From Paenibacillus sp. FSL A5-0031 (lineage in GTDB: Bacteria > Bacillota > Bacilli > Paenibacillales > Paenibacillaceae), in the NCBI RefSeq assembly GCF_001956295.1, contig NZ_MRTD01000021.1, positions 62,001 through 126,000 on the forward strand: a stretch of 64,000 nucleotides of DNA, written 5' to 3'. The translations under genes and the position numbers were made by a program. Below the pieces are notes generated by a model, which saw nothing but the letters and a program-made list of their open reading frames with translations, was not told where the DNA came from and searched no databases. Below are positions 7,861 to 52,679 of this stretch, piece by piece. Within the stretch, counting starts at the first letter, position 1; each line of letters opens with the position of its first letter.

Positions 7861-7939
7861 GTTTTGCGAAGCAAAACTCACTTCGTAAGCATTAACTTTG
7901 GTTTTGCGAAGCAAAACTCACTTCGTAAGCATTAACTTA
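7861..7939 (-). repeat. Tandem pair of a 40-bp intercistronic hairpin element (copy A)
   Basis: Two units at 7861-7900 and 7901-7939 are identical over the first 38 bases. On the transcribed strand each reads ATGCTTACGAAGTGA, then a 7-bp hairpin GTTTTGC-TTC-GCAAAAC. The array begins right at the trhP1 stop codon and ends directly against the trhP2 Shine-Dalgarno (TTAGGAGGT). Related pairs lie at 35998-36077 and 59085-59163. Confidence 0.9.
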
Positions 7940-44376: not shown

Positions 44377-46497
44377 TCATTCCTTAGCGATGGTGACATC
44401 TTTGTAGTAGTATTTCAAAATATATTGATAGTCATACCCTTGCTGAGCTAGGCTTAATGCTCCGTATTGCGATAATCCGACCCCGTGTCCGTTGCCAGAC
44501 CCTACAAAACGGAACGAAGGCTCCTTCGTAGCTGCGCGAATATTACCGCTGCCATCTAATATAAACAAGTTAGCGTTAACCGCCTCTGTTTTTGCGCCTC
44601 CGGCACTAATCATATAAACAGGATTCGAATCCGACGGCTTCGTACGTGTTGCTGATCCAGCACCAAGCATAGCAACCTTCGCAGTTTCCTCAATCTGGAA
44701 CAACGTACTTGGCAAAGACCCTTGTACACCTAGTGCAGCACGATAATCAATTGGATAAGTAACAGCTAGCTTTTGTCCATTTGCTGTAATTTCTGTCGCA
44801 CGTCCTGAAGCGCCGCGCTGGCTCACTTCGAGTGATTTGAGCGGACCTGAGACGGGAGTCTTCACTTTGCCGTTAATCGTTGTTAACATTTCTTGTGCGC
44901 TGTAAGGACCACGTATCCAAGTCATTGAATTGGATTCTACACTTTTATCCAGCACAACGACCCGTGTTCCGTTGTCAACCGTTGCAATGACAGGGATCGT
45001 ATCCTGAATAAGTGGATGCTTGCGCACTTTTGTGCCGTTTGTATTTACTAGCATGATACGACTTCCTGCTGCTGTCGTTTCTCCTGTCTCGGCTAGTAAA
45101 TCCTCTCTAATATAACCAATAGCTCCGCTAGGGACAACAACGCGGTACCAATTGTTCAAACCTACCTCCGATGAAGCGTCCGGGCTTTTGACAGCCTGCA
45201 TATAAGGAACTGCATTCCCCCACGCTTCTTTGGCATCAGCCGTAAATCCACCACTGTTGGCTGAATAGATCGCATCAATAGCTTTTCCATTGTACATTGC
45301 AACTTCGCCTGCTGTCTCTTCGACGGCAGCAATGGTTGATGGCCGCTCTGAGCCTACACCGTAATAAGCTTGGCTTAAAGTCGTATCCACGACATGTGCA
45401 ATCTGGAAACCAAATCCTCGATTTAAGGCATAAGTGCGTGCAGCAACCGCTTGTGCCTTAAGTGCTTCGATCGGCCATGTAGGGTACATTTCCACACCTA
45501 CAACGGAATATAAATATTGTTCAAATGGAAGTTCATTTACGACTGCCATCCGTCCATTTAATATACTAAGCTCAAATAGTCCTCTATAGCTGCGAGCGCT
45601 CCGCTCGTTTAGCTTAATTGGATCATTCCCGATTGGAGACACCGTAACCTTCGTGTCGTTGCCAGCAAACAAATACAGCTCAGAACTGCTTTCAGCTTTG
45701 GCAGTTACGGTATGGTCATTTCTTATGAGCAAGTAAGCCGAACTAGCATCGGCCTCCTTCAAAGCCGCTCCGCCTGAAGCATTTGCGGCAGCTGCTTTAA
45801 CAATTTGCAGCTCAGCAGCTGATACAGCCGCCCCTACCATTACCGAGTAGTACGCTGATCCATTTTGCTGTGAACGAATAGCAACATAGGCATCGAGGCC
45901 AACTGCGCCGAAGCCGCTTGCTGCTGCTATCGCATCCGCTTTGCTGGTCAAAGGAGCGCTCTCCAAATGAAGTGGACCTTGAACTACCGAGTTCGAGCCG
46001 CCAACTAGCTTAGACAGCTCACTGTCACCCTTCCACTTCGTTTGTGCAGTAACAGCTTCTGCAGCTGTTTTGTATGTACCTTCAATAACCTGATAGATGA
46101 TTGCACCATTTTTTGAAAGGGAGGTTATAAAAGCAGTACCTTTCAAAGCTTGCAAACGTTTCTGTACAGCTAGAGCTGAAGCAAACGTGGAGCTCTCGTA
46201 CACTTTGACTTTAAAGCTGTCAACTGCGAATCGAGCTGTAGCTGCTCCATCTACATTAAACCAATTATTGATGCCATCAGGCTGCCTTACACCGATGCTC
46301 ATTCCACCCGTTGATGAAAATGTGGCAGCTGCTGTCGTATCATCGTATTTCCCAGGCAATTGCATGAACAAAGCAACTCGGATATTGTCGAGCTTTGGCA
46401 CTGCTGCCTGTGATGGAGAGCCTGTCCATGCTGTAGCAAGCAGTACAATTGCGATCGTCATAATTAAGTAACGCTTCATATTCCGTTTAATTGACAT
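44377..46497 (-). CDS. SpoIID/LytB domain protein, secreted
   Basis: 706 residues from the ATG at 46497, with GGGAGGAG about 11 nt upstream. A signal peptide (about 10-32) precedes an N-terminal region with two SPOR-like segments (about 95-165 and 200-245), then the SpoIID/LytB domain (LPFEQYLYSVVGVEMYPTWP and LKAQAVAARTYAL), and the end GNGHGVGLSQYGALSLAQQG. SpoIID cuts denuded peptidoglycan glycan strands during engulfment, and the conserved Glu of GVEMYP is its catalytic acid. B. subtilis SpoIID is about 340 residues, so this long form with SPOR-like domains is probably a paralogue and not SpoIID itself. Confidence 0.86.
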   Translation of the reverse strand: MSIKRNMKRYLIMTIAIVLLATAWTGSPSQAAVPKLDNIRVALFMQLPGKYDDTTAAATFSSTGGMSIGVRQPDGINNWFNVDGAATARFAVDSFKVKVYESSTFASALAVQKRLQALKGTAFITSLSKNGAIIYQVIEGTYKTAAEAVTAQTKWKGDSELSKLVGGSNSVVQGPLHLESAPLTSKADAIAAASGFGAVGLDAYVAIRSQQNGSAYYSVMVGAAVSAAELQIVKAAAANASGGAALKEADASSAYLLIRNDHTVTAKAESSSELYLFAGNDTKVTVSPIGNDPIKLNERSARSYRGLFELSILNGRMAVVNELPFEQYLYSVVGVEMYPTWPIEALKAQAVAARTYALNRGFGFQIAHVVDTTLSQAYYGVGSERPSTIAAVEETAGEVAMYNGKAIDAIYSANSGGFTADAKEAWGNAVPYMQAVKSPDASSEVGLNNWYRVVVPSGAIGYIREDLLAETGETTAAGSRIMLVNTNGTKVRKHPLIQDTIPVIATVDNGTRVVVLDKSVESNSMTWIRGPYSAQEMLTTINGKVKTPVSGPLKSLEVSQRGASGRATEITANGQKLAVTYPIDYRAALGVQGSLPSTLFQIEETAKVAMLGAGSATRTKPSDSNPVYMISAGGAKTEAVNANLFILDGSGNIRAATKEPSFRFVGSGNGHGVGLSQYGALSLAQQGYDYQYILKYYYKDVTIAKE

Positions 46498-46954
46498 TCC
46501 TGTTGTTCTCCTCCCTCTTCTGCGGCAATTCGCAGCCATTAACGGAACAGCTTTGTTCTGTAGATCCAAACCATTCATATCTTCTTTTGGCTACAAATTT
46601 GTACATACGATTTGCTATGCTTTTCATACCAGGTATTCGATAAATTACTGATAGCCAGCGAAAGCCCTTTACCGTTCTTAATATACGGACAATTCCATCC
46701 GCACCAGCAAAGAGCTGCCCCTGCTCATCAGCAACATGCATTTTCTCATACAACTCATCAAATTTCAACAAACCAACGGAAGGAATTAGCTGTTCCGTAC
46801 TGCCTGCTGCCTCCAACTGTTGAATTTGAACATAATGCAAATCCGCTTTAGAATGAAGCTCCTTCAGCTTCGCAATGGAACCCAGGCACAGATTGCAATG
46901 GCCATCATAGATAACATAAAGTTTCTCAGCGGCACCTTTGGCTCTGGAACTCAT
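46487..46954 (-). CDS. DCC family thiol-disulfide oxidoreductase-like protein (DUF393)
   Basis: 155 residues. The N-terminal YDGHCNLCLGS gives the DCC family DxxCxxC motif in a thioredoxin-like fold, and GFRWLSVIYRIPGMKSIANRMYKFVAKRR is the usual C-terminal part (core GMKSIANRMYKFVAKRR). Two more cysteines (SCSVNGC) near the end may form a second pair. GGGGAGGT lies 8 nt before the ATG at 46954. It overlaps the start of the SpoIID-domain gene by 11 bp and follows ruvB by 6 bp. The substrate is unknown. Confidence 0.86.
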   Translation of the reverse strand: MSSRAKGAAEKLYVIYDGHCNLCLGSIAKLKELHSKADLHYVQIQQLEAAGSTEQLIPSVGLLKFDELYEKMHVADEQGQLFAGADGIVRILRTVKGFRWLSVIYRIPGMKSIANRMYKFVAKRRYEWFGSTEQSCSVNGCELPQKREENNRNVN

Positions 46955-49278: not shown

Positions 49279-49926
49279 TTACTCTTGCTGATAGGCTGGG
49301 TTCATAACTTTCTGATTTTGCTCAATAGCATAGTCGCTATAGGTGGATAGAACACTATTATATTCTTCCATGTCGGTTATCCGAATCCCTCTGGTAAGCT
49401 GGTCCAGCTTATCCTGTGGCAAACTGCTCTCCATATAGCGTACATCGAGTTGGAAAAAGGTTCGAACGACCTTTTCTTTTTTTGGAGCTCCGTCATAAAG
49501 TGTAAGATTCCCTTTCTTGTCGACGCCCATATACGCATTCGCTTTACAATGATCGGACAAATCCTCAATACGCTCTTCAAACTGAACGGTGCCCTGTTCT
49601 TGATTCAACATGACCTTCCACTCTGGATGTGCAAGCACAAGCTGAACGATCTCTTTACTCACCAATTGACCTAGCAACTTCGATTCTTCGCCGCACACAT
49701 ATACGAGGCGCAGCTTTGCAGAGAGCGCTCCATCAAGCTTCTCCAGCTCTTGAATTACGCTCGTTTGATTCGCTGTTGGCTTTGGTGCAGCTGTGACAAC
49801 ATTTTTATTAGCGATAAAGAGCCAACCTGCTAGCAAGCAAAACATAATAACGCCTAACATCCAAACGGGACGCCGCTTTCTCTTTAAACGTTTCTTTAAG
49901 TTTTTCCAAAGGCTGAATTCCATCAT
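49279..49926 (-). CDS. bofC: BofC-like forespore protein (intercompartmental signalling)
   Basis: 215 residues from the ATG at 49926, which has AAGGGGT 7 nt upstream; earlier in-frame ATGs lack a ribosome binding site. A basic N-terminus and one membrane segment or signal (about 22-41) are followed by a secreted region. The stretch LRLVYVCGEESKLLGQLVS and the end RTFFQLDVRYMESSLP fit the BofC family. In B. subtilis BofC restrains SpoIVB and so times the SpoIVFB checkpoint; SpoIVFA/B are encoded further right in this window. bofC is close to the ruv genes in B. subtilis too. Identity is by short motifs and gene order. Confidence 0.8.
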   Translation of the reverse strand: MMEFSLWKNLKKRLKRKRRPVWMLGVIMFCLLAGWLFIANKNVVTAAPKPTANQTSVIQELEKLDGALSAKLRLVYVCGEESKLLGQLVSKEIVQLVLAHPEWKVMLNQEQGTVQFEERIEDLSDHCKANAYMGVDKKGNLTLYDGAPKKEKVVRTFFQLDVRYMESSLPQDKLDQLTRGIRITDMEEYNSVLSTYSDYAIEQNQKVMNPAYQQE

Positions 49927-50073
49927 AGGGAAGACCCCTTCTTTATATTTTTTGATAGTATGCGCCATAATTACATAAATATTCAAAACGATTTACTTGT
50001 AAGAATCCATAGTTTAATCTGCTTGTCCGATACTTGTTTTTTCAAAAAAATGATTAGCATTATGTATTCATAA

Positions 50074-50122: not shown

Positions 50123-52525
50123 TTAACGATTGATCCAAGGCTGATTTCCACGTTTTTTCGGTTTATTAGGCCGTGTGGAAACTGTTCGAATAACTGCTTT
50201 CTTGTTCGATTTCTTTGGTACAACTATCTTTGCTGGTTTTTCAATTTGTACATCAGCCGCCTTTGCGGTGTTTTGATCAGAACGATTCCCTTTACAGCCG
50301 CAATCGTCTTGATTCATATTGCCTACACCGGCTGTTTGAGGCCAACCCTGATTAGATGGAAACTGCTGTGAGTATGGGGAAAAACCTGCTACAGGATAAC
50401 CATAACCGCCATCATTTTGCACTTGAACCGGCATTACATTCCCATGACCCCCATGACCATAGCCGGAGCCATAACCATACTCAGGCTGCATGCTCGATGG
50501 GAAAGCCATTCCTTGGTTCGGCTGTGTTGCAAACGGCGATACCATACCTTGGTTCGGCTCTGTTGCAAATGGCGATACCATCCCTTGGTTTGGCTGCGTT
50601 GCAAACGGCGATACCATCCCTTGGTTCGGCTGTGTTGCAAACGGCGATACCATGCCTTGGTTTGGCTGCGTTGCAAACGGCGATACCATGCCTTGGTTTG
50701 GCTGCGTTGCAAACGGCGATACCATGCCTTGGTTCGGCTGTGTTGCAAATGGCGATACCATGCCTTGGTTTGGCTGTGTTGCAAACGGCGATACAGCGCC
50801 TTGGTTTGGTTGTGTCGCAAATGGCGATACCGCGCCTTGGTTTGGTTGTGTCGCAAATGGCGATACAGCGCCTTGGTTTGCTTGTGTCGCAAATGGTGAT
50901 ACAGCGCCTTGGTTTGGCTGTGTCGCAAATGGCGATACCGCGCCTTGGTTTGGCTGTGTCGCAAGCGGTGATACACTGCCTTGGTTCGGCTGTGTTGCCA
51001 GCGGTGATACACTGCCTTGGTTTGGCTGTGTCGCTTGCGGGGACACCTTACCTTTATTCGGCTTTGTTGCCAGCGGCGATACCATGCCTTGGTTCGGTTG
51101 TGTTGCCAGCGGCGATACCATGCCTTGGTTCGGCTGTGTTGCCAGCGGCGATACCATGCTTTGGTTCGGCTGTGTTGCCAGCGGCGATACCATGCCTTGG
51201 TTCGGCTGTGTTGCCAGCGGCGATACCATGCCTTGGTTCGGCTGTGTTGCCAGCGGCGATACCATGCTTTGGTTCGGGAAAGCAGAAGTTCCGGCTACCA
51301 TTTGACCATTTTCCTGCATGCCATGCTGAAGTGGATTTATCATTGGATAACCATAACCCCATTCAGGGCCAACGCCCATAGGCATGCTGGATGGAGATGG
51401 ATAACTTCCAACAAATACCATACCTGGCGGACACTCAAATTGCGCCTCGTTTCCTTCATGCATTGGGCTTACCGTACTTCCGAATGGCACAGGTTGATGC
51501 CAATCTCCGTAACCGTAGCCATGTTCCATGTGAGCTGGCATGGTCATTGGTTGACCAAATCCATACCCCGACTGAATTGGCATGGTCATCGGTTGCCCAT
51601 AACCATATCCCATCTGAGCTGGCATAGTCATCATTGGCTGATGATGCCCATATCCTCCGTAAGTAGGCTGTTGTGCAGCTGGCGAGATTGCTTCAGGTGC
51701 TTTTGGCAAATCATACAAGGATAATGCTTCGGTTGCTGGAATGCCATATTGCTTGAATAAATCAACATTTGGCTTGTATTCGGAATGAATTGGTTTTAGC
51801 TTTTTCTCAACAGGCTTTTCGATTGGCAGTGCCTTTTTGGCTGGCTCAACTGCTGCCGCTTTAGGGGCAGGAAGAGGAGCTGGTTCTACTGGCTTCAAAA
51901 TAGGTGCTGTTGGTTTTTTCTCTTGAACAGGTGCAACAGGCGTTTCAGGAGCAGGGGCTACCGGTGCTGGTGCAATAGGCGCAGTTGGCGTCTTGCCTGC
52001 AATTGGAGCTGTTGGTGTTTTTCCAATAATAGGCGCTGTAGAAAGCTTTCCGACCCAGCCCTGTACCCCTTGCATGATTGAGCTTGGGTGAAGGGCATGA
52101 TGACCTCCCGTATTTTGTGCCACGCTCTGTCCAGCTTGTTGTCCAGTACCTCCAGTACCTTGGCCACCAGTTCCTTCAGTCATGGTTTCGCCTACTTTAG
52201 GGATATTCACAACTTCACCAGTAAGCAATACATTCGGATTTTTGAGCTGCGGATTCGCTTTAATCATATCCGCGAGCGGCACGCCCCAAGCTTTCGAGAG
52301 CTTCCAAAGGGTATCACCTTGTTTCACAATATGCTGATGCATGATGTCCATTCCACCTCCTGCGCCGCCCGTATGGCTTGAAGGTATTTTCAGCTTCATG
52401 CCAACATCAATGGCGTCCGGATTCGTAATACCCGGGTTCAGCTTCAAAAGCTCTTCGAGCGATACATTATACTTTTGGCCGATAAAGTATAACGACTCGC
52501 CCTTCTTCACAATATGGATTTTCAC
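50123..52525 (-). CDS. safA: SafA-like spore coat morphogenetic protein with two LysM domains and a long 12-residue repeat array
   Basis: 800 residues, starting with GTG at 52525 behind GGAGGT. Two LysM domains lie at 2-49 (HIVKKGESLYFIGQKYNVS) and about 63-110 (HIVKQGDTLWKLSKAWGVP). Next come a Pro/Ala-rich linker and the segment VDLFKQYGIPATEALSLYDL, which resembles SafA. A Gly/Tyr/Met-rich stretch and 21 units of a PNQGMVSPFATQ repeat follow, then a Gly/Tyr-rich part, a DDCGCKGN cysteine motif and a basic end. B. subtilis SafA has one LysM and no such array. The protein would bind cortex peptidoglycan and recruit coat proteins. The LysM part and the bofC neighbourhood support the name; the repeats are this gene's own feature. 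Confidence 0.82.
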   Translation of the reverse strand: MKIHIVKKGESLYFIGQKYNVSLEELLKLNPGITNPDAIDVGMKLKIPSSHTGGAGGGMDIMHQHIVKQGDTLWKLSKAWGVPLADMIKANPQLKNPNVLLTGEVVNIPKVGETMTEGTGGQGTGGTGQQAGQSVAQNTGGHHALHPSSIMQGVQGWVGKLSTAPIIGKTPTAPIAGKTPTAPIAPAPVAPAPETPVAPVQEKKPTAPILKPVEPAPLPAPKAAAVEPAKKALPIEKPVEKKLKPIHSEYKPNVDLFKQYGIPATEALSLYDLPKAPEAISPAAQQPTYGGYGHHQPMMTMPAQMGYGYGQPMTMPIQSGYGFGQPMTMPAHMEHGYGYGDWHQPVPFGSTVSPMHEGNEAQFECPPGMVFVGSYPSPSSMPMGVGPEWGYGYPMINPLQHGMQENGQMVAGTSAFPNQSMVSPLATQPNQGMVSPLATQPNQGMVSPLATQPNQSMVSPLATQPNQGMVSPLATQPNQGMVSPLATKPNKGKVSPQATQPNQGSVSPLATQPNQGSVSPLATQPNQGAVSPFATQPNQGAVSPFATQANQGAVSPFATQPNQGAVSPFATQPNQGAVSPFATQPNQGMVSPFATQPNQGMVSPFATQPNQGMVSPFATQPNQGMVSPFATQPNQGMVSPFATQPNQGMVSPFATEPNQGMVSPFATQPNQGMAFPSSMQPEYGYGSGYGHGGHGNVMPVQVQNDGGYGYPVAGFSPYSQQFPSNQGWPQTAGVGNMNQDDCGCKGNRSDQNTAKAADVQIEKPAKIVVPKKSNKKAVIRTVSTRPNKPKKRGNQPWINR
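50508..51276 (-). repeat. 36-bp in-frame minisatellite inside the safA-like gene
   Basis: About 21 complete units plus one degenerate unit, each 36 bp and coding for 12 residues of the PNQ-x-x-VSP-x-AT type. Neighbouring units are more alike than distant ones: three blocks differ by Met/Ser/Ala in position 5 and Leu/Phe in position 9, which suggests local duplication. All frames and the complementary strand stay open across it, creating false ORFs. Confidence 0.95.
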
Positions 52526-52635
52526 TCGTTGTTAACCTCCTGTCACGTTCTGAATAACCAGGCACTGCTAATGCCTATTATCAATCCTTACATCCTATGC
52601 AGAATATGGGCAGGTGTCTCCACTTTCACAAAAAA

Positions 52636-52679
52636 AATAGTAAAAAGCCGAGTTCACCCATCAGAGTGAACTCGGCTTT
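52636..52679 (-). terminator. Terminator of the thrR-hom-thrB-pheA operon
   Basis: AAAGCCGAGTTCAC pairs with GTGAACTCGGCTTT around an 8-nt loop (52644-52679), with a T-rich tail on the minus strand. The stretch 52526-52635 upstream of the safA-like gene shows no gene; a sporulation promoter is expected there but none was assigned. Confidence 0.9.

Follow-up and report, generated by a model that had tools for sequence, protein, structure and literature searches.

ExsA of B. cereus (Bailey-Smith et al. 2005), a member of the SafA/ExsA family of spore-coat proteins, reportedly carries multiple tandem oligopeptide repeats after its LysM domain. The SafA protein of B. subtilis is recruited early under a localisation signal made up of the LysM domain and region A, and it associates with itself via the C-terminal (C30) part; it in turn brings in inner-coat proteins and Tgl, a transglutaminase of which both SafA and the C30 form are substrates (PMC6490927). 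The occurrence of SafA and Tgl genes is treated in PMC3533761 and PMC8745062, the accessible portions of which hold nothing on SafA repeats, and an ExsA mutant of B. cereus receives a short remark in the accessible portion of PMC9562818. In B. anthracis, two of the most polymorphic repeats sit in exosporium genes (available text of PMC1479350). In the literature searched, we found no role assigned to the repeats of the SafA inner-coat scaffold, and no paper on SafA repeat number was found in a search that reached few subscription papers.

The window, i.e., the whole stretch of 64,000 nucleotides analysed here (soil bacterium Paenibacillus sp. FSL A5-0031, contig NZ_MRTD01000021.1, positions 62,001 to 126,000), contains a safA-like gene with a long internal tandem array (Table 1). 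The gene product matches TIGR02899 (spore_safA) with 90 bits over the whole protein in two stretches, against a cut-off of 67.85, and Pfam LysM with 93 bits, also in two stretches. The best single LysM place scored alone in the genome search reaches 56.4 bits, below the cut-off, and the LysM model of TIGR02899 is short and unspecific, with matches in 10 of 14 control genomes and above the cut-off only in B. subtilis; the family call therefore rests on both domains jointly and on the neighbouring genes. The prephenate dehydratase gene (pheA, by model match) precedes safA, and the gene after it has a BofC_C match at 49279-49986 (Pfam). Beyond bofC lie RuvC-, RuvA- and RuvB-like ORFs, which gives the order pheA, safA, bofC, ruvC, ruvA, ruvB, and bofC and ruvAB neighbour safA in the same order in B. 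subtilis. Judged by domains and gene order, the gene belongs to the SafA/ExsA family, and the "coat or cortex-binding protein" of the preliminary description fits this assignment.

Table 1. Features of the safA locus in the window (positions of the window, forward-strand numbering)
Feature	Position	Strand	Basis or remark
safA-like gene, GTG start, 800 aa	50123..52525	-	ORF; TIGR02899; LysM
First LysM domain, aa 4-48	52382..52516	-	Pfam LysM best stretch; pLDDT block means 80-86
Second LysM domain, aa 67-109	52199..52327	-	TIGR02899 best stretch; pLDDT block means 71-82
Smaller array, 27 bp, 2.5 copies, GKTPTAPIA type	51973..52039	-	TRF
Smaller array, 42 bp, 2.4 copies, Tyr/Gly/Met/Pro-rich	51531..51632	-	TRF
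Main array, 21 complete in-frame 12-aa units	50522..51277	-	consensus PNQGMVSP[LF]ATQ; TRF and frame reading
Block 1, units 1-6, MVSPL type ([SG]MVSPL x6)	51062..51277	-	
Odd unit 7, PNKGKVSPQATQ	51026..51061	-	at the same position in G191
Units 8-9, SVSPL type (GSVSPL x2)	50954..51025	-	
Units 10-14, AVSPF type (GAVSPF x5)	50774..50953	-	
Units 15-21, MVSPF type (GMVSPF x7)	50522..50773	-	
72-bp (2-unit) stretch absent from G191	50558..50629	-	best placement units 19-20; ends ambiguous within the repeat
Degenerate unit 22, PNQGMAFPSSMQ	50486..50521	-	counterpart closes the array in G191 and L031
Conserved C-terminal tail: CGC motif, then Lys/Arg-rich end	50126..50302	-	alignment A2 and composition
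Ribosome-binding site AGGAGG	52536..52542	-	by eye; in 17/17 aligned sequences
Conserved upstream block, possible sporulation promoter	52581..52630	-	alignment of 17 sequences
Terminator-like hairpin with T-run, between pheA and safA	52643..52679	-	by eye

In the C-terminal tail, C742, G743, C744, R748, K772, K775, P796 and W797 are invariant in alignment A2 (25 sequences). Upstream of the gene, the conserved block hardly changes over the 17 aligned sequences, of which L041 and L112 look like one genome and L001 and L111 are one species, while the hairpin ahead of the block varies; the block is possibly a sporulation promoter with a regulator site, mother-cell sigma-E expression being expected of the SafA/ExsA family. 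No in-frame internal start matching C30 was seen within the 120-bp stretch read, where a GGGAGGT site lies ahead of an out-of-frame ATG. A search for the SafA partner SpoVID gave a partial match in 36 of 36 genomes and exceeded the cut-off in none of them, and four controls other than B. subtilis also match below it; in G000 a 444-aa frame is matched in its N-terminal, middle and C-terminal parts, below the cut-off. Near the safA-bofC-ruv cluster, 44377-46578 encodes a SpoIID/LytB-domain protein with a weak SPOR-like match, a SpoIID-like paralogue that scores 139.6 bits against the SpoIID equivalog cut-off of 234.75.

The array is reported by Tandem Repeats Finder (TRF) at 50506-51277 with a period of 36, 21.4 copies, 90% match, zero indels and a score of 970, against a top score of 58 in codon-shuffled versions of the gene, of which 5 of 200 gave any TRF row. 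The 21 units of 36 bp given in the preliminary description are thus borne out by TRF and by reading in frame, as a count from an 87-contig draft assembly. The same description had recognised three blocks, where the in-frame reading gives five segments, and had called neighbouring units near-identical, which holds roughly for the average (3.4 differences in 36 sites) but not throughout, as the 21 units comprise 19 different DNA sequences, the only identical pairs being 1=4 and 2=3. Adjacent units differ at 0-4 sites, except that unit 7 is 10 and 11 sites away from its two neighbours and unit 9 is 7 sites away from unit 10. Mean distance climbs with separation, from 3.4 between neighbours to about 8 for units eight or nine places apart, with 5.9 over all pairs, and the summed neighbour distance of 68 was matched in none of 20000 shuffled orders (mean 117). 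Neighbour similarity above that of random order points to local, stepwise duplication, in agreement with what had been proposed.

In composition the array is almost uncharged, its 252 residues including three K and one E, and the GXY triplets of collagen-like proteins such as BclA are absent from its unit. The long overlapping ORFs on both of its strands are attributed to a unit length divisible by 3, and a Lactonase Pfam match over the array was taken as low-complexity, as no single stretch passes alone. The unit type was not found elsewhere in genome G000: eight of nine search rows fall in the safA region, and spread of the array to further genes was rejected, the sole row outside that region having an E value of 0.49 and two stops. 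A separate repeat of the window, at 7861-7938, is a 40-bp sequence duplicated perfectly in tandem, palindromic at its core (GTTTTGCGAAGCAAAAC) and flanked by two adjacent peptidase-like genes; allowing up to 2 mismatches in 30 bases, it has seven copies on four contigs of the genome, all on the + strand of the contig and paired on three of the four contigs, and is a small dispersed palindromic element.

Among 51 genus genomes only G191, assembled as one contig, is labelled as the same species, and this one strain pair is 95.0% identical over a 5402-bp alignment that includes safA. The G191 array has 19 full units and likewise ends in a degenerate unit, and its product is 776 aa long. The gene alignment contains a single gap of 72 bp, in frame and inside the last block; over units 1-17 the two arrays stay colinear, odd unit 7 included, with 0-5 differences per same-index unit. 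Both the strain-dependent copy number (21 vs 19) and its effect on protein length (800 vs 776 aa), which had been foreseen, are thereby seen in this pair, and the array is a variable-number tandem repeat locus. The blocks are common to the two strains, so their order is older than the strain split and not recent. The sister species FJAT-28004 (L031), 88.9% identical over the longest alignment and with an N run inside its array, agrees with the window in its end block (MVSPF) and the first PNQS unit, with MVSPM in place of the window's MVSPL. The two extra units may be a gain in the window strain or a loss in G191.

The comparison was extended to further relatives, in which 67 loci gave 60 with a SafA N-terminus and 38 after removal of 7 truncated and 15 duplicate sequences; the 38 belong to the window's genus or to records named Paenibacillus, apart from two named Bacillus sp. 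All 35 loci free of N runs contain at least one tandem array, with a best-scoring period divisible by 3 in every one. The TRF period of the main array ranges from 11 to 56 residues over the 35 species, some long periods being multiples of shorter units, and copy number in the 36-bp rows ranges from 4.2 (L115) to that of the window. P. castaneae (L034) has an array of about the same total length as the window's, which TRF reads as 108 bp x 7.2. Alternating unit types build higher-order repeats of 72 bp in L008 (W/M alternation), 78 bp in L016 and 108 bp in L034. In a wider class sample, in which 121 genomes were searched with the short LysM model and 30 returned loci examined, 17 of the 30 gave a TRF row, some of them short and weak; L082 has 39 bp x 8.0, and L099 has a VSPL-type array of 36 bp x 5.2. 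No TRF row was present in six of the 30 (L089, L093, L096, L103, L106, L108), and the motif search gave no frame in seven (L094, L097, L098, L102, L104, L105, L109). A C-terminal part with repeats is therefore the usual state in the SafA/ExsA family, in agreement with what is said of B. cereus ExsA. N runs or X residues occur in safA of L011, L031, L050, L118 and L121, within the arrays where examined, so such arrays trouble assemblies, a point relevant to anyone annotating coat proteins.

For all the variety in unit length, the tripeptide VSP recurs. It reaches at least 0.6 per unit of the main array in 30 of 35 species, against a mean of 0.9 and a maximum of 6 in 1000 within-unit column permutations, a control that runs in fixed phase and is somewhat low for arrays with indels; because the 35 species share ancestry, these counts are not independent events. 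The form [MA]VSP reaches this level in 25 species (permutation mean 0.16, maximum 2), and SP alone, in 30 of 35, is less striking than VSP, its permutation mean being 11.9 and its maximum 20. The five main arrays without VSP are those of L003, L023, L051, L052 and L060. In the 16 species with 12-aa units, V, S and P occupy their positions in 96, 95 and 99% of 171 units, degenerate end units counted, a conservation that is partly by construction at P8 and S7, as collection of units required N at position 2 plus P8 or S7.

Within this set of units the nearest relative lies strictly within the same array for 146 of 171 (4 ties), compared with a mean of 7.7 and a maximum of 19 in 50 label shuffles, and units of one species are on average 6.9 apart, those of different species 12.7. 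This pattern indicates that the arrays undergo concerted evolution. The pN/pS ratio is 0.23 among the 21 window units and 0.09-0.72 within 17 arrays including that of G191, with 0.54-0.72 in 3 of the 17. Between the window and G191, the 17 colinear units give pN 0.009 and pS 0.149, a ratio of about 0.06 (4 nonsynonymous and 23 synonymous differences), the upstream flank gives pN 0.006 and pS 0.080 (6 and 23), and the downstream flank gives pN 0.006 and pS 0.135 (2 and 12). Amino-acid change is thus held back in the array to the same degree as in the flanks. At synonymous sites the array has diverged about twice as much as the upstream part (Fisher p = 0.03, one uncorrected test) and about as much as the downstream part, so the raised value is not peculiar to the array.

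AlphaFold2, run with 25 aligned sequences, gives pLDDT 71-86 for the LysM blocks and a pTM of 0.22, and places almost all of residues 113-796 below pLDDT 50, with no confident fold outside the LysM domains; at an alignment depth of 25 sequences, a low pLDDT speaks only weakly for disorder. Taken with the data on SafA of B. subtilis, this makes the array, in a reading that we consider probable, a disordered and multivalent spacer of the SafA scaffold between cortex and coat, its length drifting by unequal exchange. The array would form the disordered, repetitive middle of SafA as a scaffold linking the spore cortex to the inner coat, in which the N-terminal LysM domains would anchor the protein on spore peptidoglycan, the repeat region would serve as a flexible spacer displaying many short VSP-centred candidate contact motifs, and the conserved Cys/Lys/Arg-rich tail would engage the coat. 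Unequal exchange or slippage would add or remove whole copies, every such change staying in frame with a unit of 36 bp, and these events would alter both spacer length and valency and homogenise the arrays within species, while selection would purge amino-acid changes that break the core motif. We infer VSP as a binding motif, the spacer character of the region, the contact between tail and coat and the effect of length on coat architecture. A bolder version, which we regard as unlikely, would make the SafA repeats a multivalent "sticker" domain under rapid rebuilding: each species would keep VSP and change the unit length, the spacer and the copy number, one conserved coat partner would read VSP valency, and repeat number would tune the tightness of the cortex-coat joint. 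The natural allele pair in one species, the presence of VSP over varied unit lengths and the flank-like restraint make a specific test possible, namely whether cortex-coat attachment depends on repeat number or on VSP.

Other explanations of the array bear on the same observations. That the 21 copies are an artefact of the draft assembly is very improbable: N runs do interrupt the arrays of L011, L031 and L050, and safA of G006 looks split over contigs C6 and C12, but the single contig of G191 shows the same array of 19 units in the same order, and most units are distinct. Moreover, none of units 19 to 21 has an exact match anywhere else in the window array or in G191 (where the distances are 1, 2 and 1), so these three are not plain assembler copies, and the artefact that the preliminary description named as a way to refute variable copy number can be set aside as unlikely. 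A neutral length polymorphism in a low-complexity linker, with sequence and copy number irrelevant and turnover by replication slippage alone, would accommodate the wide variation of unit sequence and length between species (period 11-56 aa), the unequal copy number between strains and the lack of a confidently predicted fold. It nevertheless seems rather doubtful in view of an amino-acid restraint between strains equal to that of the flanks, the near-constancy of V, S and P in the 171 units, even allowing for the part that P8 and S7 owe to construction, and the recurrence of VSP over differing unit lengths.

A further proposal, that the repeats mainly supply glutamines for Tgl cross-linking to lysines of SafA or its partners, would suit the 1.9 Q per unit of the window array, the Lys-rich tail, the presence of Tgl in the window's genome and in 47 of the 51 genomes of the genus, and the status of B. 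subtilis SafA and C30 as Tgl substrates (PMC6490927). We hold it to be decidedly improbable, given that the main arrays of eight loci (L014, L019-L025) contain 0.0 Q per unit although the genomes behind them (G015, G030, G001, G036, G008, G018, G022, G013) all have Tgl, and that the genomes lacking Tgl (G010, G014, G032 and G181) keep Q in their units (L017, L016, L015 and L121). As Q content does not track Tgl presence, cross-linking was rejected as the general purpose of the repeats; it is disfavoured as the general reason for them and may nevertheless take place at the array here. In those four of the 51 genus genomes, the only ones without a Tgl match, the arrays are all of a Tyr/Gly-rich VSP type (GYGGMVSPAETQ), which suggests that Tgl was lost once, in one clade, and hints at another cross-linking chemistry, e.g., dityrosine; Tyr-rich arrays are also found alongside Tgl, as in L019, L021 and L022.

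In relation to known systems, the window protein resembles SafA of B. subtilis (TIGR02899 family) in its N-terminal LysM region and as a member of the spore-coat scaffold family, and differs from it in the long 36-bp array. ExsA of B. cereus is of the same family, with a unit that differs in sequence and length. Repeat polymorphism in BclA is said, to go by a paper's title, to alter filament length. The window protein has two LysM domains, against the one described for SafA of B. subtilis (PMC6490927). The collagen-like region of BclA and Bams30 are strain-variable, in-frame tandem repeats in spore-surface genes (available text of PMC1479350); BclA is collagen-like and lies in the outermost layer, whereas the window array has a non-collagen 12-aa unit in a cortex-coat scaffold. 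CotB and CotG of B. subtilis offer a further likeness as coat proteins with repeats that are likely disordered, although those repeats are Ser/Lys/Arg-rich and phosphorylated by CotH (accessible part of PMC7821199), while the window array is nearly uncharged. Variable in-frame repeats in spore-surface genes are thus already known, and the window array is one more, well-resolved example, which adds to the known pattern a pair of strains, arrays that evolve in concert and the regularity of VSP.
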